From assembly GCA_937864535.1 (NCBI GenBank), contig CALMJS010000019.1:248001-312000 (forward strand): a stretch of 64,000 nucleotides of DNA, read 5' to 3'. The notes beneath the pieces were generated by a model. It was not told where the DNA came from. It made no database searches and saw only the letters and a program-made list of their open reading frames with translations. This document shows, piece after piece, positions 13,785-64,000 of the stretch; position 1 is the first letter of the stretch; every line of letters starts with the position of its first letter. The stretch comes from an uncultured Paracoccaceae bacterium (GTDB taxonomy: Bacteria; Pseudomonadota; Alphaproteobacteria; Rhodobacterales; Rhodobacteraceae). The translations under genes and the position numbers were made by a program.

Positions 13785-16700
13785 TCAGGTCGATCGGAAC
13801 ACAAACTCTGGCAGAACCGTCTCCCACTCTGCGCGCTTGATATAGCTCTGGAAATGCTCGTCATTGTCCGATTTGCGCCAGCGAACCACAGCTCCGACCT
13901 TGCCCTCGACCAACCTTGTCCCTGACGGCGGTGACCAGTTTGCTGCCATTCGGCCGATGACGCAGTCGCTTCGGTCGAGGATGATCCACCTGCCCTCTCT
14001 GCGCTCGAGGTGAACCGGATCATTCACTCTCGCGCGCGAAATGGCTGCAAGCGTCGGACTCGTATCGAATAGCCGTCCGGCGAATGACAGGTCGACCGAC
14101 GACAGCTCTGGCAGCTGATAGTGGTCGGGGCTGGGCAGATCGCTGTTGCGGGGGCGCTCGATCCTGCGCAGAAGTTCGCTCTCGCTGTCTGCCAGGACAA
14201 AGGGATGTTCGCCGCTGACGACCACGGCCAGACTTTTGCGGGCGCGCGTCATGGCGACATAGAACAGACGTCGGGGGGCCTCTCCGTCTTCTCCACGCGA
14301 CAACGCCTTCCATCCGCCGTTGAGAATGACAACGTGGTCGAATTCCAATCCCTTGGAACGGTGCGCGGTCAGCAATAGCAGGCCTCGCTGGGCACTGCGG
14401 ATGTCTTGGGACCATTCGGCCAACCACTCGATGGCATCGGGAACCGGAATGGTCTTTTTGCCCAGCTCGCGTGCAAGATCGGCAAGCCCCTCTGCAATCA
14501 GGTTGACCCAGCGGTTTGAAGGCTGGCGGTTCAGGACCAATAGAATATCCTGAATATTGAGCATCGCGGACGGGTCTTGGCGGAGGTCCGAGACAAGCTG
14601 CTGCATCTCTCTCAGACGCCAGATGCTCGGCAGTTTCTCGTTCGCCATTTCGACCGGCAGGCCCAGCTTTTCGGCATAGGCGCGGACCGGTTCCAAACGT
14701 TTCCAGTCACGAGAAATGATCGCTGTCCGCGCCCAGTGAAAGTCGGGGTCAAGGCGCGAAATCCGCACCAACTCGTCAACGGCGGACATTGCCTGAAGAA
14801 TGTCGTCATCCGCCACATCGAGGAACTGAACGCGCCCTTTGCCAACCGGATCATGGGTGGCCATGATGCCCCCGCCCGGCTCGAGGCCGCGCACCTTGTC
14901 CACAGTGATGGCATGGCCATCCTTCATCCGGCCGCGCGCAGGTTCGATCACCTGATTGGCCGCATCGATGATATAGCGCGTGGAACGGTAATTCTCGGTC
15001 AGGAATTTTGGTTTCGCGCGATAGTCTTCTTCGAACTTGCGGATAAAGGAAATCGACGCGCCGGCAAAGGCATAGATATTCTGGTCGTCATCCCCCACCG
15101 CAAAGAGGCTCAGACGCTGATCGGGATCTTCGAGGGATCTGCCTGCGACGGCGGAAATCAGCGCGTATTCCTCGGGGCCGATGTCCTGATATTCATCGAC
15201 CAGAATCCAGCGATACCCCTGAATGAGGATCTCCCTCTGGGCCTCGGCCTCGGATTTGCTCAGCCCGTCGCCGTTTAGCTGGCGGACGGCATCCCGGATA
15301 ATGCCATCAAAGTCACGTGTTTCCTTGGCAACGCCGTCAAACCTCGCGCCGACCAGCCTCATGGCCAGGGCATGGCAGGTCGAGATCGTCACCGACGCGG
15401 CATGCTCGCCCACCAGATGCCGCAGCCTTGCGCGGATTTCGGCGGCGGCATGGCGATTGTAGGTCAGGACAAGTATGCCCCTCGGGTCCTCCCGCTTGAC
15501 ACGCAGGAGATAGGCGATCCGATGCACCAGAACCCGGGTCTTGCCGGAACCGGGCCCCGCAAGCACAAGCACGTTGGTTTCTTCGCGGTCATCGGCAACG
15601 ATGTCTTTCTGCACCGGATTGCCCAAATCCTCGACAATCTGCTTCCACGCCTTGCCCGTCGTCTGACGACGAATTTCCACGCCGCGACCGGGCATCCATG
15701 TCTTGAGAAAGCGGTCCTGATCCATCGCGAAATAGTCTTCCGACATCCGCACGGCATCCCGGATTCTTTCCAGTCCCCGTTCCGCGTATTCGGCCATAAC
15801 ATGGGTCTGAAGGGTTTGTTCGCGGTAATGGTCCTCTAGCGGAAGGAAGTCTTTCTTTGTGAAATTCCCCTTCCCGCCCTTGAGATAGATGGTCATGGCA
15901 GACCGAAAGACCGTCAGACCTTTGCCCAGCGTCAGCACCTTTTGCTCGTGAAGCCAGAGCAGCGTCCGCTCCATCAGCTTGGTCAGGTCTTTGACCCCCG
16001 CGCTCTTGATCAGGGCGTCACCGGACAGGCACTCCATCAGCTTGCCGTGGGTGGTCTCGACCTGGACATCCTTGCCGCGCGATCCCGCAGGCGCCGCCGC
16101 CACCAAGAAATCCAACAGCCGCACCGCCGCGGTCCACCGCAAATTGGCAGTCTGCTCCACCACGCGCCACGTCCGCTGCAAGGTGACTTCTACGGTCTTG
16201 TTCGACAGCTTTCGCAGGCGGATGTTGCCGCGCTCGCCGGCGCCATCACGGCCATCGCGTTCGATACTCCGCAAAATCCGGTCAATCAGATGGGGGATCG
16301 CATCCTCGTTGCCGTTATTTCGCAAAAACTGACTCGCTTCGGCAAGGTCGAGCACCGTCGGATGTCCCGAATCCGCGTCTGGGTCCAGTTCCCTCAGTCG
16401 CGACAGCAGCGCACGCTCCAGCTCGACAGCGTGTTTCAGCCGTTGGCGCGAGTGGTTTTCCACCCCGATATGCACAGCCACAGTGATGGCAATATCATTT
16501 CTAGCAATCCCCAGACTTTCCAGATCCGCCATCGCCTTTGACAGCGCCCGATGTGACAGGCCACTCACGCCGGTCAATTCGTCGGTCGAGATGCCTTTGT
16601 CGGCAGGCGCGTTCATCACGTGTTCAACAATCGCAAGCAGCTCGCTTCGCCGCGTTTGTGTGATCTCCGCCTTTTGCAAACGCGTTCGCGCTTCGTCGAT

Positions 16701-52291: not shown

Positions 52292-53266
52292 TTGACCCTG
52301 CCCACGCTCAAGGTCGCGCTCCGCACCTATCCCTATACAGAGGCGCTGAAAACCGGCGCGATCCAGCCCAAACTGGCCAATCTGGACTTTGTCGATGTCA
52401 AACCGCATATCGCCGCCTTTCGCCGGATGGTGCGGGATCTGGAATTCGATGCCTGCGAGATCGCGCCGACAACCTATATGATTGCCCGTGCCTATGGCGT
52501 GCCGATTGTCGCGCTGCCGGTATTTTTCGTGCGCCGGTTCCATCATGACGGGCTGGTCGTGCGCCCCGAAGCCGGGATCACCTCGCCCAAGGATCTGGAG
52601 GGCAAGAACTTTGGCGTGCGCGCCTATTCGGTGACGACGGGCGTGTGGAAACGCGGGCTGCTGCAAAACGAATATGGCGTCGACATCGACAAGGTGAACT
52701 GGTTCGTCGACGACGAGGAGCATGTGGCGGAACTGACCCTGCCGGGCAATGTGCATCACGTCCCCGAGGACAGTTCGCTGGTGGCGATGATGGCCGAAGG
52801 CAAGCTGGACGCCGCCTGCACCGGCGACGCGGGGATCGGCCGCGCCGGAAAGCCGGGCGAGGGCTGGCACGACGCCGGACCCGCGCTGCCGGACACGCTG
52901 CGCGAATTGTTCGCCGATCCGGCACGTCTGGATGCCGAGGTCTTTGCCAAGGATGGCGTGTTCCCGATCCACGGCACGCTGGCGATCAAGCAAAGCGTTC
53001 TGGACGCCAACCCCGGTCTGGCCGCCGATCTCTACGAGGCGTTTGTTGCCGCCAAGGCCCCCTATCTGGCGGCGCTACGCGACGGCACCGCCACCGGCAA
53101 AGAGGCCAGCAAGGATCGCAAGCATATGGCGATCGTGGGCGATGACCCGCTGCCCTACGGGCTGGAGGCCAATCGCGCCTCGATCGAGGCGCTGATCCGA
53201 TACGGCCATCAGCAGGGGCTGATCCCGCGCCTGTTTGCCGCCGAAGACATGTTCCTGCCGTTCTGA
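52292..53266 (+). CDS. 4,5-dihydroxyphthalate decarboxylase-like protein (second paralogue)
   Basis: A 324-residue protein of the same two-lobe family as 45129-46049, with parallel blocks FDACEIAPTTYMIARAYGVPIVALPVFFVRRF and NFGVRAYSVTTGVWKRGLLQNEYGVD. It starts with TTG at 52292, preceded by AGAAGGAAC; no signal peptide is seen. The aldolase gene follows 11 bases after the stop. It may decarboxylate a hydroxylated aromatic dicarboxylate, or act as a cytosolic binding protein. The sequences of the two paralogues have diverged enough to suggest different substrates. Confidence 0.72.
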   Translation: MTLPTLKVALRTYPYTEALKTGAIQPKLANLDFVDVKPHIAAFRRMVRDLEFDACEIAPTTYMIARAYGVPIVALPVFFVRRFHHDGLVVRPEAGITSPKDLEGKNFGVRAYSVTTGVWKRGLLQNEYGVDIDKVNWFVDDEEHVAELTLPGNVHHVPEDSSLVAMMAEGKLDAACTGDAGIGRAGKPGEGWHDAGPALPDTLRELFADPARLDAEVFAKDGVFPIHGTLAIKQSVLDANPGLAADLYEAFVAAKAPYLAALRDGTATGKEASKDRKHMAIVGDDPLPYGLEANRASIEALIRYGHQQGLIPRLFAAEDMFLPF

Positions 53267-53277
53267 GGAGACGCGAA

Positions 53278-54129
53278 ATGACCAAAACCAACCGCCTGAA
53301 CGGGATTATCGCCGCCCTCGAAGAGGGGCGCCCGGCCACCATGGCCTTTGTGCGGGCCGAACGCGAAGAGGCGATCCAGTACGGGCTGTCGCAGCTGGAC
53401 GGCGTGCTGTTCGAGATGGAGCACACGCCCTATTCCGCCTCGGAGCTGCGCGATGCGATGCAATTCCTGATGAACCGCCGCCGGATGATCCAAGGCGGCA
53501 GCCTCAGGCCGCAGGTGACGCCCTTTGTCCGGATTCCGGCGAATGGCGCAGAGATGAACACATGGATGGCCAAGCAGGTGCTGGATCAGGGCGTCTACGG
53601 TGTGGTGTTTCCGCACATCGCCACCGCCGAACAGGCCCGCAATGCGGTCTCGGCCTGTCGCTATGCCCGTCCGGCGGGGGCCGCCCTGTCCGAGCCGAAG
53701 GGCCTGCGCGGCGATGCGCCCAATGCGGCGGCGCGGTACTGGGGTTTGACGGTGCCCGAGTATTACGCCCAAGCGGACGTCTGGCCATTGGACCCGAACG
53801 GCGAAATTATGGTCGTGCTGATGATCGAGAGCGTCGAGGCGATGGAGAATCTCGACGAGATCCTCGCTGTGCCGGGGATCGGCGCGATCATGATCGGCGA
53901 AGGCGACCTGAGCCAGCAACTTGGTTATCCGCGTCAATACGAACATCCCGTGGTGGCCGAGGCCAAGCAGGCGATCCTGACCAAGGCAAAGGCCGCAGGT
54001 ATCCGCGTCGCCTATCCCCATGCCACCGCCGAAAACGCGCAAAAGGTACTGGAGGCGGGTTATGACATTCTGTTCTGCACCCCGTCGCGCAGTTATGCGA
54101 CGCTGGACAAGGTGAAATCACTGGCCTGA
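53278..54129 (+). CDS. HpcH/HpaI-family aldolase/citrate lyase-type protein
   Basis: A 283-residue class II (metal-dependent) aldolase-fold protein. Family elements are GVLFEMEHTPYS near the metal site, the VYGVVFPHIATAEQARNAV block, and MIESVEAMENLDEILAVPGIGAIMIGEGDLS with the conserved glutamate and aspartate ligands. Such enzymes split 4-hydroxy-2-oxo acids to pyruvate and an aldehyde or oxo acid, a typical last step of aromatic meta-cleavage. AGGAGA precedes the ATG. A terminator follows the gene. Confidence 0.82.
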   Translation: MTKTNRLNGIIAALEEGRPATMAFVRAEREEAIQYGLSQLDGVLFEMEHTPYSASELRDAMQFLMNRRRMIQGGSLRPQVTPFVRIPANGAEMNTWMAKQVLDQGVYGVVFPHIATAEQARNAVSACRYARPAGAALSEPKGLRGDAPNAAARYWGLTVPEYYAQADVWPLDPNGEIMVVLMIESVEAMENLDEILAVPGIGAIMIGEGDLSQQLGYPRQYEHPVVAEAKQAILTKAKAAGIRVAYPHATAENAQKVLEAGYDILFCTPSRSYATLDKVKSLA

Positions 54130-54147
54130 GGGTCGGGCCTGACAAAC

Positions 54148-54180
54148 AAAACGGGCGGCCTGATCAGGGCCGCCCGTTTT
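54148..54180. terminator. Bidirectional terminator after the aldolase gene
   Basis: AAAACGGGCGGCC (54148-54160) pairs perfectly with GGCCGCCCGTTTT (54168-54180) around TGATCAG. The A and T flanks make it work for the aldolase transcript and for the convergent TPP-enzyme transcript. Confidence 0.9.
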
Positions 54181-54233
54181 CATATGTCCGGATGAGCGAC
54201 AGGAAAACGCCGACCGATCGGTCGGCGGTCCCA

Positions 54234-55910
54234 TTAGCCCAGTGCGGCCTGACGGATCTGCGACAGGCTCTGCGCGGGGGTCAACGCCTCCGGGTCGATC
54301 ATGATTTCCAGAACCGCCGGCCCGTCATGCGCATCGGCGCGGGCAAAGGCCGGAGCAAACTCCTCGGTCCGGGTCACCCGTTCGCCATAGGCGCCATAGG
54401 ATTTGGCAAAGGCGGTGAAATCGGGATTTCCCGCCATCAGATCGGTCCCGGCCACCCGGCCCGGATAGTGGCGTTCCTGATGCATGCGGATGGTGCCCAG
54501 CATGCCGTTGTTCAGGATCAGAATCCGGATTTTCAGACCGTGCGCCACCGCAGTCGCCAGTTCGGTTCCGGTCATCTGGAAATCACCGTCCCCGGCGATA
54601 CAGATCGCGGTGGCCCGAGGGCGGGCGAATTTCGCCGCCAGCACCGCAGGCACGCCATAGCCCATCGACCCGCAGATCGGCGCGATCTGGGTGCCAAAGT
54701 CGCGGTATTTGTGGAACCGGTGCAGCCAGACGGTAAAGTTGCCCGCTCCATTGGTATAAATGGTGTCATCGGGCAAATGGTCGTCCAGCCACGCCATGAT
54801 CTGGCACATCTGGATGGCGCCGGGGCTGACCCTCGGCGCGGTCCATGCGTCGTAATCGCCACGCGCGGCGCGGCACAGGGCCGCACGGTCCGCGCGGTGG
54901 CTGTCGCCGAGATCGCCGCCCGCCGCCAGCGCCAGCACGAATTCCGAGGCCGAAGACACCACGGCCAGATCGGGCTGATACACTCGCCCGATGTCATCGG
55001 GACCGGGGTAGATGTGGATGAGCTGCTGGGCGGGGCAGGGGCTGTCCATGATGGTATAGCCGTTGGTGCCGATTTCGCCCAGCCGCGCCCCGATCACCAC
55101 GATCAGGTCGGCATTCCCGACGGTGGCCGCCAGCTTCGGGTTCACGCCCAGACCGATTTCACCGATGTAGCAGGGGCTGCGATTGTCCAGAACATCCTGC
55201 CGCCGGAACGTGGCGCAGACCGGAATGTGCGCGGTTTCGACAAAATCGCGCAGGGCCGCCACCGAGTCCGGCGTCCAGCCGGTGCCGCCGACCATGATCA
55301 CCGGACGCTGCGCCTGCGACAGTGCCGCCCGCACCGCCGCCACCGCCGCAGGGGTGGGGCCATTCTGTGCGGCGACGGCGGGTCTGCCATTGCCGGGGCC
55401 GACCGGACAGGTCAGCGCATCCTCGGGCAGGGGCATCACCACCGGGCCGGGCCGACCGGAGATCGCGAGCTGGAAGGCCCGCGTCACCTGTTCGACCACC
55501 CGGGCGGGATCGTCGAGCTGGATCACCGCCTTGGACTGAGAGCCAAAGGCGAGCCGGTAATCGACCTCCTGGAAGCCTTCGCGGGTCAGCACGTCGCGCG
55601 GATTTTGCCCGATGAACATGATCATCGGCGTGCTGTCCTGAAACGCCACATGCAGCCCCGAAGAGGCATTGGTCGCCCCCGGGCCGCGCGAACAGAACAC
55701 GATGCCGGGACGTCCGGTCAGCTTGCCATAGGCTTCGGCCATCATGGCGGCGCCGCCTTCGTGGCGACAGGTGACCAATTCGATCTGCGGCGTGTCGTGC
55801 AGCGCGTCGAGCACGGCGAGAAAGCTCTCGCCGGGGACGCAGAACACCCGGTCAATGCCCTGAAGCACCAATTGGTCTACAAGGGCGCGGGCAGCGGTCC
55901 GCGTGGTCAT
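54234..55910 (-). CDS. Thiamine-diphosphate-dependent enzyme, acetolactate-synthase-like
   Basis: A 558-residue enzyme with three domains: the N-terminal pyrimidine-binding domain with the catalytic glutamate (CRHEGGAAMMAEAYG, near residue 50), a central domain, and a C-terminal diphosphate-binding domain with GDGDFQMTGTELATA and the downstream NN of the TPP motif. It resembles the large subunit of acetolactate synthase, but no regulatory subunit is nearby. Members with such neighbours often decarboxylate or carboligate 2-oxo acids. Its start overlaps the ligJ stop (ATGA), so it probably acts on a product of that pathway. Confidence 0.83.
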   Translation of the reverse strand: MTTRTAARALVDQLVLQGIDRVFCVPGESFLAVLDALHDTPQIELVTCRHEGGAAMMAEAYGKLTGRPGIVFCSRGPGATNASSGLHVAFQDSTPMIMFIGQNPRDVLTREGFQEVDYRLAFGSQSKAVIQLDDPARVVEQVTRAFQLAISGRPGPVVMPLPEDALTCPVGPGNGRPAVAAQNGPTPAAVAAVRAALSQAQRPVIMVGGTGWTPDSVAALRDFVETAHIPVCATFRRQDVLDNRSPCYIGEIGLGVNPKLAATVGNADLIVVIGARLGEIGTNGYTIMDSPCPAQQLIHIYPGPDDIGRVYQPDLAVVSSASEFVLALAAGGDLGDSHRADRAALCRAARGDYDAWTAPRVSPGAIQMCQIMAWLDDHLPDDTIYTNGAGNFTVWLHRFHKYRDFGTQIAPICGSMGYGVPAVLAAKFARPRATAICIAGDGDFQMTGTELATAVAHGLKIRILILNNGMLGTIRMHQERHYPGRVAGTDLMAGNPDFTAFAKSYGAYGERVTRTEEFAPAFARADAHDGPAVLEIMIDPEALTPAQSLSQIRQAALG

Positions 55911-56938
55911 GCCGCGATCCCCAGCGATTTCAGACGGGCATCGAGGCGCGGATAGACGCGGCGCACGTTGCCTTCGAAGATCGCGAATTTATCCTGTTCG
56001 GACAGGGTCAGCGCGTCGATATAGCGTTTGGTGTCGTCAAAGTAATGGCCGGTCTGCGGGTCGATCGAGCGTACCGCCCCCACCATTTCCGAGCCGAACA
56101 GCACGTTCTTGACCGGGATCACCTCGGCGAGGAGGTCGATGCCGGGCTGGTGATAGACGCAGGTATCAAAAAAGACATTGTCCATCAGCGCCTCGGCCAG
56201 CGGCGGGCGGCCAAGGTCCTGCGCCAGACCGCGATAGCGACCCCAGTGATAGGGCACCGCGCCGCCGCCATGCGGGATCACCATGCGCAGGGTCGGGAAA
56301 TCCTTGAACAGGTCGGACATCAGGAGTTGCATGAACACCGAGGTGTCGCCGTTCAGGTAATGCGCGCCGGTGCCGTGGAAATTGGCGTTGCACGACCCCG
56401 AGACGTGGATCATCGCGGGCACGTCCAGATCGCACAGCGCCTCGTACAGCGGATACCAGAACCGGTCGGTGACCGGCAGGCCGGACCAATGACCATCCGA
56501 CGGATCGGGGTTCAGGTTGCAGGCGACAAAGCCCAGCTCCTCGACGCAGCGGCGCAGTTCGGGAATACAGCCCGCCGGATCGGCACCCGGCGATTGCGGC
56601 AACTGGCAAACAGGGGCAAAGCGGTCGGGGTACATGGTCGCGACACGGTGGATCAGGTCGTTACAGGTCCGCGTCCAGTGTTGCGACAGCGCCTCGTTCC
56701 CGTGATGGTGGCCCATCAGGCCGGCAATCGGGGAGAACAGCGTCATGTCGATGCCGCGTTCCTTTTGCAGGCGGATCTGGTTCGCCTCGAGGCCGTCGCG
56801 CAGTTCCTGATCCGAAATATGCGGGGCGGGCGTGAAATCCGAGGTCTTGCCGGCCTTGTAATCGGCAATCTGTTTGGTGCGGTAGTCGCGGAAATAGCCG
56901 GGGACGGTGGTGAAATGCCCGTGGCAGTCGATAATCAT
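55907..56938 (-). CDS. ligJ: 4-oxalomesaconate hydratase-like amidohydrolase
   Basis: A 343-residue amidohydrolase-2 protein very close in layout to LigJ of sphingomonads: IIDCHGHFTT at the start (metal ligands H6 and H8), LPQSPGADPAGCIPELRRCVEELGF, NLNPDPSDGHWSGLPVTDR, FKDFPTLRMVIPHGGGAVPYHWGR and FDTCVYHQPGIDLL. LigJ hydrates 4-oxalomesaconate in the protocatechuate 4,5-cleavage and gallate pathways. The ATG at 56936-56938 has an AAAGG site. It heads a two-gene unit with the TPP enzyme. The shared motif AAATCCGATTGG lies 70 bases upstream. Confidence 0.8.
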   Translation of the reverse strand: MIIDCHGHFTTVPGYFRDYRTKQIADYKAGKTSDFTPAPHISDQELRDGLEANQIRLQKERGIDMTLFSPIAGLMGHHHGNEALSQHWTRTCNDLIHRVATMYPDRFAPVCQLPQSPGADPAGCIPELRRCVEELGFVACNLNPDPSDGHWSGLPVTDRFWYPLYEALCDLDVPAMIHVSGSCNANFHGTGAHYLNGDTSVFMQLLMSDLFKDFPTLRMVIPHGGGAVPYHWGRYRGLAQDLGRPPLAEALMDNVFFDTCVYHQPGIDLLAEVIPVKNVLFGSEMVGAVRSIDPQTGHYFDDTKRYIDALTLSEQDKFAIFEGNVRRVYPRLDARLKSLGIAA

Positions 56939-57056
56939 GGGATGACCTTTCTTTGGCTGGCCACAGGGGCCGATCATCCCTGCGTACCGTTTGCCATCTA
57001 AGACGGGCCAATCGGATTTCAGGCGCGGAACATAGAGTTTGAGTGGCGCGCCCCGA

Positions 57057-58043
57057 TCAGAGGTCGGCCGCGACACGAAAGCCGCAGTTTGCCATCGAAC
57101 TGTCGGGGTCGGTCGCGGTGCGCGAATGGACGTGGTATCGGTCGCAATAGCTGTCGTGGCAGAGGAACGATCCGCCGCGCTGGATGCGGGCGCTGCCGGT
57201 TACGGGGCCGGTCGGGTCCGATAGCGGCTGATCGCCCGCGGGGCGGGGGCCGTAATAGTCCGCGACCCATTCCCAGACATTGCCGGTCATATTGTAGAGC
57301 CCGTAGCCATTGGGCGCAAAGGCATCGACCGGACAGGTGCCGATATAGCCATCCTCGGCGCTGTTGGTGCGGGGAAAGTCGCCCTGCCAAACGTTCATCG
57401 CATGGCCGCCCGCAGGCACCAGCGCATTGCCCCACGGGAATTTCATGTGTTTGAGGCCACCGCGCGCGGCGCGTTCCCACTCGGCCTCGGTCGGGAGGCG
57501 CAGCCCCGCCCAAGTGGCATAGGCCAGCGCATCGTACCACGCGATATGGACGGCGGGATGGCCCGGGGTATCGGACCAGTGGCTACCGGGGCCAGCGGGC
57601 GCGGCCCAAGAGGCGCCGAACACCTGACGCCACCACGGCAGGCGCGGCGGATGGGTCGGATGGTCGGCGGGATTGGCCAAGAGCAAGTGGAAGACATAGC
57701 TCCAGCCCTCGACCTCGGCCACGGAGCGATAGCCGGTGGCGGCGACAAAGGCCGCATAATCGGCGGCGGTGACGGTGACCGGAGAGAGCAGAAACCCCGT
57801 GACCTTGACCCGCCGGCGGGGGGCATCGAGGTCGGCGGCATAGGTCGATTTACGCGTCCCCATGTCGAAAAACCCGCCGGGAATCGGCACCAGCCGCCCG
57901 CGCAACGCGGCCTGCTGGCCCGGGGTGGCGCGGGCAACGGCCAAGGCGCGGATCAGATAGTCCGCCTGCGTCGGCGGGACCTGCAACGATGGCGCGCGCG
58001 TTGCGCCGGAACAGCAGCTCTGGGGTTTGTCGGTCAGGTCCAT
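57057..58043 (-). CDS. Formylglycine-generating enzyme
   Basis: A 328-residue FGE-sulfatase fold protein. It keeps the two active-site cysteines of genuine FGEs, C295 and C300, in GGSFLCHDSYCDRYH, with the LPTEAEWERAARGG, PWGN and TGNVWEWVAD blocks. It therefore should oxidise the cysteine of the C-x-P-x-R motif in sulfatases to formylglycine, using copper and oxygen. Its N-terminus carries a CC pair. The only sulfatase in the window, with CTPSR, is 2 kb away. The ATG at 58043 is set by the N-terminal homology. It is divergent from the TauE gene, which shares its promoter region. Confidence 0.87.
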   Translation of the reverse strand: MDLTDKPQSCCSGATRAPSLQVPPTQADYLIRALAVARATPGQQAALRGRLVPIPGGFFDMGTRKSTYAADLDAPRRRVKVTGFLLSPVTVTAADYAAFVAATGYRSVAEVEGWSYVFHLLLANPADHPTHPPRLPWWRQVFGASWAAPAGPGSHWSDTPGHPAVHIAWYDALAYATWAGLRLPTEAEWERAARGGLKHMKFPWGNALVPAGGHAMNVWQGDFPRTNSAEDGYIGTCPVDAFAPNGYGLYNMTGNVWEWVADYYGPRPAGDQPLSDPTGPVTGSARIQRGGSFLCHDSYCDRYHVHSRTATDPDSSMANCGFRVAADL

Positions 58044-58126
58044 CGGTCTTCCTCTGTCGCGGGGAACCTTAGCCGAGCCGGACCGCGCGAGGTATTGCCA
58101 AGTTTGCGCCCCGTGATGCAGATTGG

Positions 58127-58180
58127 TTATCACCACGGGGCATGTTTGCATTTCTAACGTAGCGGCGCCTTGGGTAGGCA
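58127..58180 (+). promoter_or_regulatory. Sulfatase-regulon promoter module 1 (upstream of tauE-like gene)
   Basis: TTATCAC (58127-58133), 11 bases, TTTGCAT (58145-58151), 23 bases, TAGGCA (58175-58180). The same elements with identical spacing occur at 59870-59923 and 62598-62651. The order and distance suit a LysR recognition site, an activation site near -35 and a weak -10. The site lies in the divergent gap between the formylglycine-generating enzyme and the exporter gene. Confidence 0.72.
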
Positions 58181-58210
58181 AGGGCGACACTTGCCGCGCG
58201 AAATCCTCTC

Positions 58211-59110
58211 ATGACCGTTTACCTCCCGATCGCGGGCATGCCTGTCGATCCGTTTCTCATTATCGCACTGGGCGCTCTGGTCGGCGCGATGTCCGGCCTG
58301 TTCGGGGTCGGCGGCGGGTTCATCCTGACGCCGCTGCTGTTTTTCATCGGCATCCCGCCCGGTGTCGCGGTGTCCACGCAGGCGGCGCAGATCGTCGCCT
58401 CTTCGCTGTCGGGGGCGATCGCGCATTGGCGGCGGCGGACGCTGGACCTGCGGATGGGAGTCTATCTGCTGGTCGGCGGGCTGATCGGGTCGAGTCTGGG
58501 CGTGCAGGTATATGCCCGGCTCAGCGCCATCGGGCAGGTCGATCTGATGGTGCAACTGTTTTACGTGGTGTTTCTGGGCCTGATCGGCGGGATGATGTTC
58601 ATCGAGAGCCTCGCGGCGATCCGCCGCCAAGGCCCCGCCCGCCGCAAGCGTCACACATCGGTTCACCGCCTGCCGCTCAAGGTACGGTTCCGGACCTCCG
58701 GCCTGTATATCTCGGCGATCCCGCCCTTTGCCATCGGGCTGCTCTGCGGTGTTTTGGCGGCGGTGATGGGGGTCGGGGGCGGGTTCATCATGTTGCCCGC
58801 GATGATCTACCTGCTGAAAATGCCGACCAAGGTGGTCGTGGGCACGTCGCTGTTCCAGATCACCTTTACCGCGGCCTTTACCACGGTGATGCATGCAGGG
58901 ACCAACCAGTCGGTCGATGTGGTGCTGGCGATGCTGCTGATACTGGGCGGGGTGGTCGGCGCGCAGATCGGCACGCGGCTGGGGACCTCTTGGCGGCCGG
59001 AATACATGCGGATGGCGCTGGCCTCTCTGGTGCTGCTGGTCTGCGTCAAGGTCGCGCTGGACATCACCCTGCCGCCGACCGAGCCCTATTCGGTAGAGTT
59101 CACCGGATGA
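58211..59110 (+). CDS. TauE/SafE family sulfite/organosulfonate exporter
   Basis: A 299-residue membrane protein with eight or nine spans and the two GxGGGFIxxP repeats of the family: GLFGVGGGFILTPLLFF near residue 30 and AVMGVGGGFIMLPAMIY near residue 185. TauE/SafE proteins export sulfite, sulfoacetate or related anions. In this island it could remove sulfate or sulfite released by the sulfatase, or take up its substrate. The stop overlaps the next gene by ATGA. Confidence 0.85.
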   Translation: MTVYLPIAGMPVDPFLIIALGALVGAMSGLFGVGGGFILTPLLFFIGIPPGVAVSTQAAQIVASSLSGAIAHWRRRTLDLRMGVYLLVGGLIGSSLGVQVYARLSAIGQVDLMVQLFYVVFLGLIGGMMFIESLAAIRRQGPARRKRHTSVHRLPLKVRFRTSGLYISAIPPFAIGLLCGVLAAVMGVGGGFIMLPAMIYLLKMPTKVVVGTSLFQITFTAAFTTVMHAGTNQSVDVVLAMLLILGGVVGAQIGTRLGTSWRPEYMRMALASLVLLVCVKVALDITLPPTEPYSVEFTG

Positions 59111-59862
59111 TCCGGCTGCTGATCCTGTGGCTGGCGCTCTGGCCCGCCGCTGTGGGCGCGCAGACGGTGACGATGCGGCTCAGCCAGAACTTTGTCCCGA
59201 TTGACGCCAGTTTCGCCGGAGGGGAGATCCTCGCCTTTGGGGCGCTGATCCCCGGCGCGGGTCAGACCGCCCGCGATCTGGCGGATATCGACATCGTGGT
59301 CACCGTGGCCGGACCGCCACGCACCGTCACGGTACGGCACAAGACGCGGGCCTTGGGCATCTGGGTGAACACCGGCAGCACGACCATCGCGCAGGTGCCG
59401 TCGTTCTATGCCACAGCGGAAACCGCGCCGCTGCGGCGGATTCTGAACTGGACGGATGGGCATCTGCTGTCGGTAAACGACCGGCTGCGTGCCAGCCTCG
59501 GCCCCGGTGCCACCCGCGAGGATGTATCGTATTTTGCGGCTTTGCTGCGAATTGGCCGGGAAAAAGGGTTCTATGTCGATAGTGCCACGCCGGTCGATGT
59601 GCAGGATGACACGCTGTTTCGCACCCGCTTCACCCTGCCCGGAGACCTGCCGCCCGGCGGCTATGTGGTCACGGCCTATCTGCTGCGCGGGGGTACGGTC
59701 ATCGCCAGTCAGAGCCAATTGATCAATGTGGACCAGATCGGGCTGTCGCTGGTGCTGCGGCGGATGGCGATGGCCAATGGCTGGTTCTACGGGGGCATGA
59801 CGCTGATCCTCGCCCTCGGGGCGGGATGGGCGGCGGCGGCGATCACCGCGCGGGGGCGATAA
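59107..59862 (+). CDS. TIGR02186 family membrane-anchored protein
   Basis: A 251-residue protein with a signal peptide (first 19 residues, ending VGA before QTVTMRLSQNFVPID), a beta-rich periplasmic region, and one C-terminal span (WFYGGMTLILALGAGWAAAAI). The family is regularly found next to TauE/SafE genes in alphaproteobacteria and is thought to assist that transporter; no activity is known. The ATG at 59107 overlaps the exporter stop. Confidence 0.8.
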   Translation: MIRLLILWLALWPAAVGAQTVTMRLSQNFVPIDASFAGGEILAFGALIPGAGQTARDLADIDIVVTVAGPPRTVTVRHKTRALGIWVNTGSTTIAQVPSFYATAETAPLRRILNWTDGHLLSVNDRLRASLGPGATREDVSYFAALLRIGREKGFYVDSATPVDVQDDTLFRTRFTLPGDLPPGGYVVTAYLLRGGTVIASQSQLINVDQIGLSLVLRRMAMANGWFYGGMTLILALGAGWAAAAITARGR

Positions 59863-59869
59863 GTTTTCC

Positions 59870-59923
59870 GTATCACCAATGGCTGTCTTTGCATTTTTGC
59901 CGAATGCCAAGCACCGATAGGGT
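59870..59923 (+). promoter_or_regulatory. Sulfatase-regulon promoter module 2 (upstream of the sulfatase)
   Basis: GTATCAC (59870-59876), 11 bases, TTTGCAT (59888-59894), 23 bases, TAGGGT (59918-59923). Around the second element GCATT and AATGC (59891-59895 and 59903-59907) also form a small dyad. The module starts eight bases after the preceding stop codon and 169 bases before the sulfatase ATG, so the sulfatase has its own regulated promoter. Confidence 0.75.
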
Positions 59924-60038
59924 GACACGGACTGACGGGCCGTTTGGCCCCTGTCGAGGGAGGGCACTGCGGGTCTGGCAGGCGGCGAGCGCGCCGCCAC
60001 GGCTCTGCGTGACCACGCAGAGGAATAAGGACCACCAG

Positions 60039-61598
60039 ATGACCAAACGACCGAACATCATTTTTATCATGTCGGACGATCATGCCGCGCAGGCGATCTC
60101 TTGCTACGGGCACGGGCTGAACGAGACGCCGAACCTTGACCGGATCGCGCAGGGCGGGATGCGCCACGACGCGACCTATGTGACCAATTCGATCTGCACC
60201 CCCAGCCGCGCCGCGATCCTGACGGGGACCTATAACCATACCAACTGTGTCACCACGCTGGACACCCATATCGACAACCGCATGCCCAACGTCGCCAAGA
60301 CGCTGCGCGCGGGCGGCTATCGCACGGCGATTTTCGGCAAATGGCATCTGGGCGAAACGGCGGGCCATACGCCGACCGGGTTTGATGAGTGGTCGATCGT
60401 GCCGGGGCAGGGGGATTATTGGGACCCGGCCTTTATCAGCCCCGAAGGGCGCAAGCGTATCCCCGGCTATGCGACGGATATCATCACCGATCTGTCTATC
60501 GACTTTATGGAGCGCAGCATCGCCAGCGATCCCGACCAGCCGTTTTTCCTGATGTGCCATCACAAGGCGCCGCATCGCAACTGGCAGTACCATCCCCGCT
60601 ATAAACACCTCTGGGCGGATAAGGACGTGCCGCTGCCCGCGACGTTCCACGACGATTACCGCAATCGCGCCGCCGCTGCCGCCGCCGCCAAGATGCGGAT
60701 CAAGGAGGACATGCTCTACGAGGATATCGCGCTGGTCCAGCCCGAAGGCGGGGCCGATGTCGCGGGCGAAATGATGGTCGATCCGTGGCCGATGCGCAAA
60801 ATCCCAGAACTGATGCCGGGCGAGACGATCACCGTGATCTGTTCGGAGACCGGCACGAATTACACCTTTGACGATCCGGCCGAGTTCGCGGCGTTCAAAT
60901 TCCAGCGCTACATGAAGCGGTATTTCCGCACCATCGCCGCGATTGACGATGGCGTGGGCAAGATGCTGGACTGGCTGGAGGATAAGGGTCTGGCCGAGGA
61001 TACCATCGTGATCTACACCTCGGATCAGGGCTTTTTCCTTGGCGAGCATGGCTGGTTCGACAAACGGTTCATGTACCGCGAGAGCCACCAGATGCCCTTC
61101 CTCGTGCGCTATCCACGCGCCATCGCGGCAGGGTCGACCTCGGCCGATATTGCCTGCAACGTGGATTTCGCGCCGACGTTTCTGGATTATGCCGGACTTC
61201 AAATGCCGAACTATATGCAGGGCCGGTCGCTGCGCGGCGTCTGGGAGGAAAAGACCCCCGACGACTGGGAGCAGGTCGCCTATCACCGCTACTGGATGCA
61301 CAACGACATCATCCATAACGCTTGGGCGCATTATGGCGTGCGCGACGACCGCTATCTGCTGATCTACTGGTACAACGACGATCTGGGCCAGATCGGCGCG
61401 CGTCCGAACGATGCCCCGCCCGAGTGGGAGCTGTTCGACACGCAGGTCGATCCGAACGAGCTGAACAATGTCGCCGCCGATCCGGCCTATGCGGGGGTGT
61501 TCCGCGACATGCTGGCGAAACTGGACCGGCGGATGGCGCTGATCGGGGATATTCCCGAACATGACAGTGCAGTGGTTCTGGCCGGATTGGCCGCGTAA
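60039..61598 (+). CDS. Cys-type sulfatase
   Basis: A 519-residue type I sulfatase. The signature CTPSRAAILTG places the formylglycine precursor at C53 (C-x-P-S-R). Aspartates D13 and D14 in IMSDDH and the later TSDQGFFLGEHGWFDKR block provide the calcium site and catalytic groups. No signal peptide is present, so it acts in the cytosol, which means its substrate must be imported. The best candidate importer is the solute-binding protein system at 62.7 kb. The ATG follows an AGGAATAAGGA site. The long middle insert (residues 210-280) is subgroup-specific; the substrate is an unknown sulfate ester. Confidence 0.9.
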   Translation: MTKRPNIIFIMSDDHAAQAISCYGHGLNETPNLDRIAQGGMRHDATYVTNSICTPSRAAILTGTYNHTNCVTTLDTHIDNRMPNVAKTLRAGGYRTAIFGKWHLGETAGHTPTGFDEWSIVPGQGDYWDPAFISPEGRKRIPGYATDIITDLSIDFMERSIASDPDQPFFLMCHHKAPHRNWQYHPRYKHLWADKDVPLPATFHDDYRNRAAAAAAAKMRIKEDMLYEDIALVQPEGGADVAGEMMVDPWPMRKIPELMPGETITVICSETGTNYTFDDPAEFAAFKFQRYMKRYFRTIAAIDDGVGKMLDWLEDKGLAEDTIVIYTSDQGFFLGEHGWFDKRFMYRESHQMPFLVRYPRAIAAGSTSADIACNVDFAPTFLDYAGLQMPNYMQGRSLRGVWEEKTPDDWEQVAYHRYWMHNDIIHNAWAHYGVRDDRYLLIYWYNDDLGQIGARPNDAPPEWELFDTQVDPNELNNVAADPAYAGVFRDMLAKLDRRMALIGDIPEHDSAVVLAGLAA

Positions 61599-61602
61599 CC
61601 CG

Positions 61603-61627
61603 AGGGCGGCCAGCGTGCCGCCCTTTT
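61603..61627. terminator. Terminator between the sulfatase and LysR genes
   Basis: AGGGCGGC (61603-61610) pairs with GCCGCCCT (61617-61624) around CAGCGT, followed by a short T-run. It lies five bases after the sulfatase stop and 17 bases before the end of the convergent LysR gene. Confidence 0.8.
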
Positions 61628-61640
61628 GCTTTCGCTGGGG

Positions 61641-62582
61641 CTAGCGGGGGGTGCCCCACTCGGGCGCGTCATTGGCAAAATATTTCGTAGCGATATCGAG
61701 CAGACCGACCAGCGGCGGCCAGTCTGCCATTTCCGCGCGATACACCGCGCCCGACGGCACCACCCGTCCGGTCCAGGGCAGCGGCAGCGCCCGCAACTGC
61801 ATCTCTGGCGTCGCATGGACCGACGCTTCGGGCAGGATGCAAAGGTAATCGCTGCGCTGGAGCAGGCCCAAGACCGCCAAGAGGGATTCCGACCGGCACC
61901 GCACCAAGGGCGCCCGCCCCAGACGTTCGATCATCGCGTGCTGGGTCTGGAGTTCGTAGACGGAATCGCCGGTATAGACGATCCACGGATAGTCCAGCAG
62001 ATGCGGCGCGCGGACAAAGCCGTCCTGATCCAGATCCGCCAGCAGAGGGTGATCCCGCCGCGCGACGATCCGGTCGCGGACGGTCACAAATTCCCGCCGG
62101 ATCAGACGTTTATCCCGCTTGGCATCGATCTGCACCCCGCCAAAGGAAATGTCGCAATGGCCTTCGATCAGGTCTTCGAGAACGGGGCGGGGGCTGGCGT
62201 ATTCCAGCACAACATCGACACCGGGAAACTGCACCTGAAATTCCGGCAGGATCGAGGGCAGCACAACGGACCGCCACAGCGGCCCCGTCCTGAGCCGCAG
62301 CACGCCCGTGGTTTCGCGCCCGGTGCGCATCAGGTCCTCTTGGGCCAGTTCCCATTGCCGCGACATGCGATTGACGGTGGACAGCACCCGCAGGCCAAAG
62401 TCCGTGGGTTCGATGCCGCGGGTATGGCGCACCAGCAGGGGCCGACCAAAGATCGACTCCAACTGGGCAATCGAGCGTGACAGCGCGGGCTGGGTCAGAT
62501 TCAGACGCCCTGCGGCCTTGCGCATGCTGCCTTCTTCGATCACGGCACGCAGGCGAAACAGGTGGGTCATCTGGTCGATCAT
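61641..62582 (-). CDS. LysR-type regulator of the sulfatase island
   Basis: A 313-residue ordinary LysR protein: HTH at residues about 4-62 (GSMRKAAGRLNLTQPALSRSIAQLESIFGRPLL) and an effector domain from about 90. It is convergent to the sulfatase gene and divergent from the solute-binding protein gene. Module 3 of the shared promoter motif begins only 16 bases from its start codon, a position suited to negative autoregulation. It is the best candidate to recognise all three modules. The inducer could be the sulfate ester or its desulfated product. Confidence 0.88.
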   Translation of the reverse strand: MIDQMTHLFRLRAVIEEGSMRKAAGRLNLTQPALSRSIAQLESIFGRPLLVRHTRGIEPTDFGLRVLSTVNRMSRQWELAQEDLMRTGRETTGVLRLRTGPLWRSVVLPSILPEFQVQFPGVDVVLEYASPRPVLEDLIEGHCDISFGGVQIDAKRDKRLIRREFVTVRDRIVARRDHPLLADLDQDGFVRAPHLLDYPWIVYTGDSVYELQTQHAMIERLGRAPLVRCRSESLLAVLGLLQRSDYLCILPEASVHATPEMQLRALPLPWTGRVVPSGAVYRAEMADWPPLVGLLDIATKYFANDAPEWGTPR

Positions 62583-62597
62583 GGCGATACGTTTACC

Positions 62598-62651
62598 TTA
62601 TCACGGTGGTGCCTCTTTGCATTATCCGCGAATATCGCGAGGCGCTAAGGT
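62598..62651 (+). promoter_or_regulatory. Sulfatase-regulon promoter module 3 (upstream of the ABC solute-binding gene)
   Basis: TTATCAC (62598-62604), 11 bases, TTTGCAT (62616-62622), 23 bases, TAAGGT (62646-62651). CGAAT after the second element stands at the same offset as in module 2. The module lies between the divergent LysR and solute-binding protein genes and points toward the latter. Confidence 0.75.
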
Positions 62652-62706
62652 CGGTCAAGCAGCGTTTGGGCCCCAAGGGTTGGGCTGCGTGCATAAGGGA
62701 GGAACT

Positions 62707-64000
62707 ATGTCCAATACATTCAAAGGGACGCCGTCGCGGCGCGCCTTTCTCAAGATGAGTGCCGCAGCCGGTCTGGCGTCCTTCGCCGGTCCGCTGGCTG
62801 CCCTTGATGTCCCGACGGTTGCCGGTTTGCCTGCTGCGAACGGGCCGCTGCACTGGCTGGATTCAGGTGGCCAGAAGGGCGAGTTCATCAAGGCGACCCT
62901 GCCGGAATTCGGCAAGGTGAACGGGTTTGACGTGGTCTACGACGGCCTGCCGTGGAACGAGATCGGCACCATCCTGCCGCTGGGTATCCGTAACGGATCG
63001 GCGCCGGACACGTTCAACCTGCCCCAGGGCATGGAACCCTCTGTCGCGCTGGCCGAAGGCTGGATCCAGCCCTATGACGACTACTTTGCCGATATCGCCG
63101 CGTTCAAGGCCGCCTATCCGGCGGGGTCCTTTGTCGAGGGCGTGAACGTCTTTGGCGGCAAGACCTATGGCTTCCCCTTCTCGACAGAGCGGCGTTTCAA
63201 CAACGCGCTGCTGTTCGATCGCGCGAAACTGGCCGAGGCTGGTTATGACAAGATCGGCCCCGAACTGGCGCTGACCTATGACGAGATGCGCGATGCGGCG
63301 AAAAAGATCACCGAGAATTCGGGCGGTCGCAGCTTTGGCTTTATCATCGGCGGCAACCAACTGGGCCGTTGGGGCGATAGCGTGACGATGCTGGCGCAGC
63401 GGGCCGGGGCCAAGGTCGGCAACTCGGCGCTGATTCAGGGTCTGGATTTTGCGACGGGCGAATATGCCTTTGGCAGCGATGAATATGTGGCGGCGGTGGA
63501 ACTGCTGCTGGCGATGCGCGACGATGGGTCGGTGTTCCCCGGCGTGCTGACGATCAACGCCCCGCAGGCGCGGGAATTCATCACCCAAGGCGCGGCGGGC
63601 ATGATCATCCAAGGCCCGTGGAACGTCCCGATCTGGGAGGCCACCGCGCCGCAGTTCGACTTTGGCGTGTCGCCGGGGCCGGTGCCCACCGCCGACCAGC
63701 AGAACAACCCGGTCTATGTCGCGCAATTGCCGAACACCGGCAACATGATGTGGCTGAACAAGGCCGCCAAGAACCCCCATCAGGCCGCCGCCTATTTCGC
63801 GTGGCTGGGGTCGCTGGACGGTCAGGTCGCCTATGCCAACGTCGCCAGCTGTGCCGACCCGGCGATTTTCCCGGAAACCATCGCCTTGGCCGATCTGAGC
63901 GAGCGCGCGGTGCAGATGTTGAACATGGCGGAACGTCTGGTGCGGATTGCCCCGAACCCGATGATCGCCAACCCCGACCTGTCCAAGGTCGCCGCCGCCT
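62707..64000 (+). CDS. ABC transporter extracellular solute-binding protein, Tat-exported (3' end cut by window edge)
   Basis: The first 431 residues of a family-1-type (sugar/MalE-like) binding protein. It starts with a twin-arginine signal (SRRAFLKMSAAAGLASFAG) near residue 10. Later stretches such as YGFPFSTERRFNNALLFDRAKL and GAAGMIIQGPWNVPIWEA are characteristic of carbohydrate-type binding proteins. The ATG at 62707 follows AAGGGAGGA. Permeases are expected beyond the right edge. As it is preceded by promoter module 3, it probably imports the sulfate ester cut by the cytosolic sulfatase, perhaps a sulfated sugar or polyol. Confidence 0.85.
   Translation, partial: MSNTFKGTPSRRAFLKMSAAAGLASFAGPLAALDVPTVAGLPAANGPLHWLDSGGQKGEFIKATLPEFGKVNGFDVVYDGLPWNEIGTILPLGIRNGSAPDTFNLPQGMEPSVALAEGWIQPYDDYFADIAAFKAAYPAGSFVEGVNVFGGKTYGFPFSTERRFNNALLFDRAKLAEAGYDKIGPELALTYDEMRDAAKKITENSGGRSFGFIIGGNQLGRWGDSVTMLAQRAGAKVGNSALIQGLDFATGEYAFGSDEYVAAVELLLAMRDDGSVFPGVLTINAPQAREFITQGAAGMIIQGPWNVPIWEATAPQFDFGVSPGPVPTADQQNNPVYVAQLPNTGNMMWLNKAAKNPHQAAAYFAWLGSLDGQVAYANVASCADPAIFPETIALADLSERAVQMLNMAERLVRIAPNPMIANPDLSKVAAA

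Follow-up and report, generated by a model that had tools for sequence, protein, structure and literature searches.

A 69-base module before the import, sulfatase and exporter genes of a Paracoccaceae bacterium is probably the operator-promoter of a LysR-type regulator

Sulfatase gene clusters are common in soil and marine bacteria, and the switch that controls them has, to our knowledge, seldom been worked out. A stretch of 64,000 nucleotides from an uncultured Paracoccaceae bacterium (contig CALMJS010000019.1, positions 248,001 to 312,000; the whole stretch is called the window here) raises this question for one such cluster, in which a formylglycine-generating enzyme (FGE), a TauE/SafE-family anion exporter, a sulfatase (Sulf1), a LysR-type regulator and the binding protein of an ABC importer are encoded close together. 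A sequence-only reading had described three short elements repeated before the TauE, sulfatase and binding-protein genes, and had proposed that the LysR protein controls import, sulfatase maturation, desulfation and export as one system. What is the repeated element, and which protein reads it? The evidence presented below suggests, with a probability of about 0.8, that it is the operator-promoter of the one LysR-type regulator encoded at 61641-62582, which would control import, desulfation and anion export.

The full module is GATA-N9-TATC-N13-TTTGCAT-N21-NNTANN. It is 69 bases long and starts 13 bases to the left of the version that had been described. Its three strong copies are the following.

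58115-58183, plus strand: copy before the TauE gene; box GATG-N9-TATC at 58115-58131, TTTGCAT at 58145-58151, proposed -10 element GGTAGG at 58173-58178.
59858-59926, plus strand: copy before the sulfatase gene; box at 59858-59874, TTTGCAT at 59888-59894, proposed -10 element GATAGG at 59916-59921.
62586-62654, plus strand: copy before the binding-protein operon; box GATA-N9-TATC at 62586-62602, TTTGCAT at 62616-62622, proposed -10 element GCTAAG at 62644-62649.

GATA (59858 and 62586) or GATG (58115) stands 9 bases upstream of each TATC. GATA-N9-TATC is palindromic and shows the T-N11-A pattern typical of LysR boxes, and the TATC that had been noticed is its second half. The palindrome therefore takes the place of TATCAC, which had been put forward as a recognition element on its own. 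The left half of the sulfatase-side box shares bases with the stop codon of the gene before it. The three copies are 94-100% identical in their fixed columns, 35-48% in the other columns of the module and 18-30% in the 50-base flanks. Because the fixed columns are alike and the flanks have diverged, the copies reflect a shared function and not a recent duplication.

The position of these elements agrees with the way in which LysR-type transcriptional regulators (LTTRs) are known to work. With NNTANN (columns 59-64) taken as the -10 element, the centre of the box falls at about -62 and TTTGCAT occupies -40 to -34, which is the textbook LysR layout. All three strong copies thus have a T-N11-A box near -65, in the form GAT-N11-ATC, with the value of -62 hinging on the assumed -10 element, and an activation element at or next to -35. 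The earlier suggestion of a recognition site near -65 and an activation site near -35 fits well, with TTTGCAT as the proximal activation element. TTTGCAT was also considered as a sigma-70 -35 element. This was ruled out, the distance to the proposed -10 element being 21 bases where about 17 is usual. The predicted transcription starts are 58185, 59928 and 62656, with leaders of about 26, 111 and 51 bases.

The pattern is rare. Matches to TATCAC-N11-TTTGCAT-N23-TARGG begin at 58128, 59871 and 62599 on the plus strand of the window, with 1, 0 and 0 mismatches. The three elements had been described as identical and identically spaced on the plus strand; the pattern is indeed found at all three places, except that the TauE copy ends in TAGGC and is one base off. 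The genes around the three copies (TauE and FGE, the sulfatase, and the binding protein and LysR) lie where they had been placed. A fourth match, with 3 mismatches, is on the minus strand at 58118-58067. With up to 3 mismatches the chance expectation for the window is 0.01 matches, and none of 100 shuffles reached four. The whole 3.70 Mb genome contains only those four matches at this threshold, compared to two for a reversed control. A genome scan with the 15 fixed bases of GATA-N9-TATC-N13-TTTGCAT recovered the three copies, two of them exact and one with a single mismatch, and 3 further places at 2 mismatches; its reversed control gave 1.

A form of the module is also present beside orthologs of the LysR gene in other alphaproteobacteria, and its absence there had been set beforehand as an outcome that would overturn the proposal. 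Thirteen orthologous loci were compared: 3 from the genome collection, 1 other from 394 family genomes, 1 other from 385 class genomes and 8 from plasmid records. They include Neorhizobium, Shinella, Devosia and Roseinatronobacter, and their LysR proteins are 42-49% identical to the one in the window over the match or its best segment. The module can be placed at the LysR start in all 13 loci, towards the divergent gene and 3-6 bases from the start codon implied by the match (in two Shinella records the annotated LysR start is 12 bases later than the implied one). The sites were placed by eye in a gapless register set by the box and TTTGCAT, instead of the 3-base spacer gap introduced by the aligner. 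GAT-N11-ATC is exact in 11 of the 13, the exceptions being L035 (GAA/ATA) and L044 (TAT/ATC). TTGCAT is found in 8 of the sites and GCAT in 11. Of 25 aligned sites (the 13 orthologous sites, the four of this genome and eight second copies, five near-identical), 24 have TA in columns 61-62. In 7 of the 13 sites a second TGCAT follows the first exactly 11 bases downstream; the corresponding bases in this genome are CGAAT, CGAAT and CGTAG.

Relatives of Sulf1, or of the second sulfatase that appears to belong to the binding-protein operon (Sulf2), are encoded in 12 of the 13 loci, the exception being L064. Compared with 10 of its orthologs, the LysR protein in the window is 56-74% identical in residues 1-66 and 33-45% identical in the effector domain, in this LysR set alone. 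This agrees with an operator that stays the same and a ligand that varies. In Neorhizobium galegae VafX2 the LysR ortholog is annotated as two overlapping frames (L047 12001-12952) and may be broken or misread.

A matrix scan had been proposed as a check, and it can be made with sites from outside the window. A 69-column matrix built from the 13 orthologous sites alone, with near-duplicates down-weighted, ranks the three copies first to third in the window: 59858 (31.0), 58115 (26.9) and 62586 (21.4). The fourth place scores 0.5, and the highest score from 200 column-permuted matrices is 12.3. The three copies still lead when only the first 37 columns are used, with 31.1, 25.8 and 19.6. A profile of the first 48 columns was made from 12 of the 13 sites, leaving out L050, which repeats the site of L045. 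In the organism's own genome, at E up to 10, it gave two hits, with 150 of 540 candidates scored: the sulfatase copy (E 8.9e-4) and the binding-protein copy (E 0.033). Over the 394 family genomes it gave hits in 6 at E up to 0.05, of which the two best, G222 and this genome (G000), are the holders of the LysR ortholog; the LysR-side site of G222 is itself part of the profile. Hits in G041, G190, G243 and G250 (E 0.003-0.04 per genome among the 394) were treated as chance.

Seven of the 13 loci contain a second copy of the module, before a sulfatase or binding-protein gene. In five Neorhizobium records (four of N. galegae, one of Neorhizobium sp.) it precedes Sulf1, as at L043 12950, where the Sulf1 match runs from 13092. 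In N. petrolearium (L044) it precedes the binding-protein gene, at 14657 on the minus strand, and a weaker copy at 14676 on the plus strand faces a sulfatase gene at 14772. In G222 it lies at L063 15839 on the minus strand, before a large open frame (14218-15723) that points towards LysR from the opposite strand and that, by its position and sequence, we take to be a binding protein. The second copies were first found with a matrix that included the copies of this genome, and the search was repeated with a profile that lacked them but included sites beside LysR from these loci. In Neorhizobium huautlense and Devosia, LysR is divergent from a single run of genes for the binding protein, two permeases, the ATPase, Sulf1 and FGE, and one module is enough. 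In the present genome the gene set is split into three units, each with its own copy, as a functional operator predicts.

Could the module be a real operator that is read by another protein, for example the GntR-like regulator encoded downstream, the adjacency of LysR being incidental? By sequence inspection, a GntR-like gene follows the operon in L005, the record that continues past the window, and GntR-type genes are annotated in L044, L045 and L050. The box, however, has the T-N11-A form of LysR sites, is found 3-6 bases away from where LysR starts in the 13 orthologous loci, and fits the extended LTTR family consensus CTATA-n9-TATAG given in the accessible part of PMC5002191. A search for the GntR-like protein at E up to 1e-5 in three orthologous loci (L033, L043 and L044) found nothing. 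Furthermore, four loci that have Sulf1 without this LysR have no full module. These controls were drawn from 14 plasmid records with Sulf1: eight are the LysR records, four of the other six were used, and two further Sinorhizobium records, listed with the same identity as the one used, were left out. They come from Martelella (two), Marinovum and Sinorhizobium, and their Sulf1 is 64-74% identical. Three of them have no LysR match at E up to 1e-5, and one Martelella locus (L052) has two partial matches of 28-30%. Their best 69-column scores are 2.2, -3.8, -9.2 and 0.5, compared to 25-39 for the second copies of the relatives (17.0 for the weak plus-strand copy in L044) and 51-59 for the copies of this genome, which are favored in this comparison because they helped to build the matrix. 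With the 48-column profile, none of the four loci gave a hit at E up to 1. Control by a regulator other than LysR is therefore quite improbable.

Several observations weigh against the module as a LysR operator-promoter of the whole cluster. TTTGCAT is exact in just 3 of the 13 orthologous sites. One site (L042), in locus L064 of genome G613, does not have TA in columns 61-62, and this locus has no Sulf1 or Sulf2 relative within 19 kb around the LysR ortholog. That ortholog keeps the box, and different genes are divergent from it (L064 9230-12086), so that it may have switched targets. The minus-strand copy in L044 ends at the annotated start codon of the binding-protein gene (14588), and the predicted transcript would begin inside the gene; either the annotated start or the predicted transcript start must therefore be wrong. 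When only the core of the module is scored, places more than 8 kb from Sulf1 in two control loci reach 18.3 and 19.6, and the weakest second copy scores 17.3. Only the full module separates the second copies from these core matches. Two-mismatch matches to the pattern are found in 22 other family genomes, compared to 9 for the reversed control, and this could be read as a sign that the three copies are an artefact of chance or composition, or a repeat that was copied recently. The 25 places concerned were taken as chance because only G000 and G222 of the 394 genomes have the LysR ortholog (E up to 1e-50). The chance expectation of 0.01 in the window, the contrast between fixed columns and flanks, and the conservation at orthologous loci leave hardly any room for such an origin of the three copies themselves.

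The remaining objections concern the TauE copy and the FGE side of its box. With the 37-column core the TauE copy scores 19.6, and an AT-rich chance place scores 16.8. The 48-column profile did not return this copy (genome, E up to 10, 150 of 540 candidates; window, E up to 1), and none of the 13 orthologous loci has a TauE match at E up to 1e-10, which makes the recruitment of TauE look local. The box is palindromic and hence also faces FGE, where a weak divergent half-module may exist.

58063-58131, minus strand: possible half-module for FGE, suggestive; shared palindromic box, TTGGCAA at 58101-58095, GCTAAG at 58073-58068.

This half scores -15.6 with the orthologous matrix, and 26 window positions, itself counted, score as high. 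Given the fixed box, its downstream part is equalled or beaten at 0.045% (0.00045) of window positions, with a matrix that includes the three strong copies; the column contrast for the half used columns picked after the alignment had been seen. No module was found upstream of FGE in the seven relatives tested, and in L031, L032 and L033 FGE directly follows Sulf1. It is conceivable, therefore, that the module has a role only in the LysR/transport promoter and upstream of Sulf1, and that the TauE copy and the FGE half are decayed or non-functional. The TauE copy nevertheless has a single mismatch to the original consensus and is second in rank with the full matrix built from orthologous sites, so that this narrower view appears unlikely. 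Control by LysR of all these genes as one system, as first proposed, is thus supported for transport and the sulfatase and less firmly for TauE; for FGE, control by the module is suggestive only.

The genes of the cluster are listed below.

57057-58043, minus strand: formylglycine-generating enzyme; an ATG start was chosen, and the open frame runs to 58190.
58211-59110, plus strand: TauE/SafE-family anion exporter.
59107-59862, plus strand: Alph_Pro_TM membrane protein, TIGR02186-like (138.4 bits, under the cut-off of 255.25); overlaps the end of the TauE gene.
60039-61598, plus strand: Sulf1, formylglycine-type sulfatase; sulfatase domain at 187.9 bits against a threshold of 25, CTPSR in the translation.
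61641-62582, minus strand: LysR-type regulator; start codon 3 bases from the box.
62707-64000, plus strand: binding protein of the ABC importer; Tat signal match, reaches the end of the window.

The regulator belongs to the LysR family by both of its domains (HTH_1, 67.8 bits, and LysR_substrate, 84.8 bits, with gathering scores of 26.6 and 28). C-X-P-S-R is the motif of type I formylglycine sulfatases, and Sulf1 has the characteristics of this type: the domain, CTPSR and an FGE next door. Its closest relative of known structure is the N-acetylglucosamine-6-sulfatase 5g2v (414 bits). A signal peptide is unlikely because the sulfatase domain begins at residue 5. Beyond the window the binding-protein operon seems to go on with genes for two permeases, an ATPase and Sulf2 (L005 4708-10694, named by sequence). 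The solved relatives of Sulf2 are weak (best 78.5 bits), and the binding protein has none at E up to 1e-10.

The genes that follow Sulf2 (L005 10921-19760, about 68920-77759 in window numbering) encode, by sequence inspection, the GntR-like regulator, two SDR-like dehydrogenases, a class II aldolase-like protein, a second sugar-type ABC importer and a PfkB-like kinase. Possibly these proteins act on the desulfated sugar, but the module scan gave no strong copy before their genes. On the other side, at 52292-57076, the sulfatase cluster adjoins a catabolic-looking group with an NMT1/phosphonate-binding-like protein, an HpcH/HpaI aldolase, a TPP enzyme and an Amidohydro_2 protein. In N. petrolearium an annotated anaerobic sulfatase maturase stands beside the annotated FGE (L044 19765-20976), so that two routes of sulfatase maturation lie side by side.

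These data allow a mechanism to be proposed. A LysR dimer would bind the palindrome GATA-N9-TATC, centred near -62, and a second dimer would contact TTTGCAT at -40 to -34, perhaps together with the weaker repeat one helical turn downstream. LysR would then recruit the polymerase to a poor promoter whose -10 element is NNTANN. The distance of 3 bases between the box and the LysR start codon suggests autoregulation, and LysR probably limits its own synthesis. Either the sulfate ester that is imported or a product of it probably acts as the inducer. On induction, the ester would enter via the ABC transporter, the sulfatases would be matured by FGE, the sulfate would be cleaved off in the cytoplasm and the anion would leave via TauE. 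Import, cytoplasmic desulfation and anion export would in this way form one coherent pathway.

In its layout the module resembles other LTTR promoters, for which the accessible part of PMC8407307 describes a box near -65 and an activation site over -35 and -10. Like these promoters and those of PMC5002191, as far as the available text of both goes, it has a T-N11-A box near -65, an activation element over -35 and an operator near the start of the regulator gene. It differs from them in having its own GATA/TATC half-sites, the TTTGCAT element and a set of sulfatase, import and export genes. Other known systems come close. SftR of Pseudomonas putida is, to judge by a title alone, also a LysR protein of sulfate-ester metabolism. 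The choline-sulfate regulator TIGR03418 is likewise a LysR protein that accompanies a sulfatase; the present LysR is no member of that family (58.6 of 324.8 bits), and Sulf1 is far under the cut-off of the choline-sulfatase model (148.6 of 433.45). CysB-family regulators are LysR-type and linked to sulfur, and with 55.7 of 402 bits for NF009327 the protein does not belong to them either. Choline-O-sulfate catabolism in Alphaproteobacteria, the same class, is a regulated sulfatase pathway whose regulator is BetI, according to the accessible part of PMC12442346.

The regulon had been called undescribed. Literature searches over titles and abstract openings, with most subscription journals outside their coverage, found no paper on it, and to that extent the description holds; LysR control of sulfate-ester use as such was already known from SftR. 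The LysR regulon is new, its architecture is classical, and it does not amount to a new kind of system.

The LysR lineage may be a dedicated sulfatase regulator of Alphaproteobacteria, an idea that we hold tentatively and at slightly less than even odds. Its DNA-binding code and the 69-base operator-promoter would be fixed, whereas the ligand domain, the class of transporter (sugar- or peptide-type ABC) and the targets would change. New genes, such as that of an anion exporter, would be added by gaining another complete module, and one palindromic box could serve two divergent promoters. The 69-base operator can be searched for and is linked to a single family of regulators, with loci in Neorhizobium, Shinella, Devosia and Roseinatronobacter. 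It opens the regulon to direct tests and helps to predict which transporters and sulfatases share one sulfate ester as their substrate.

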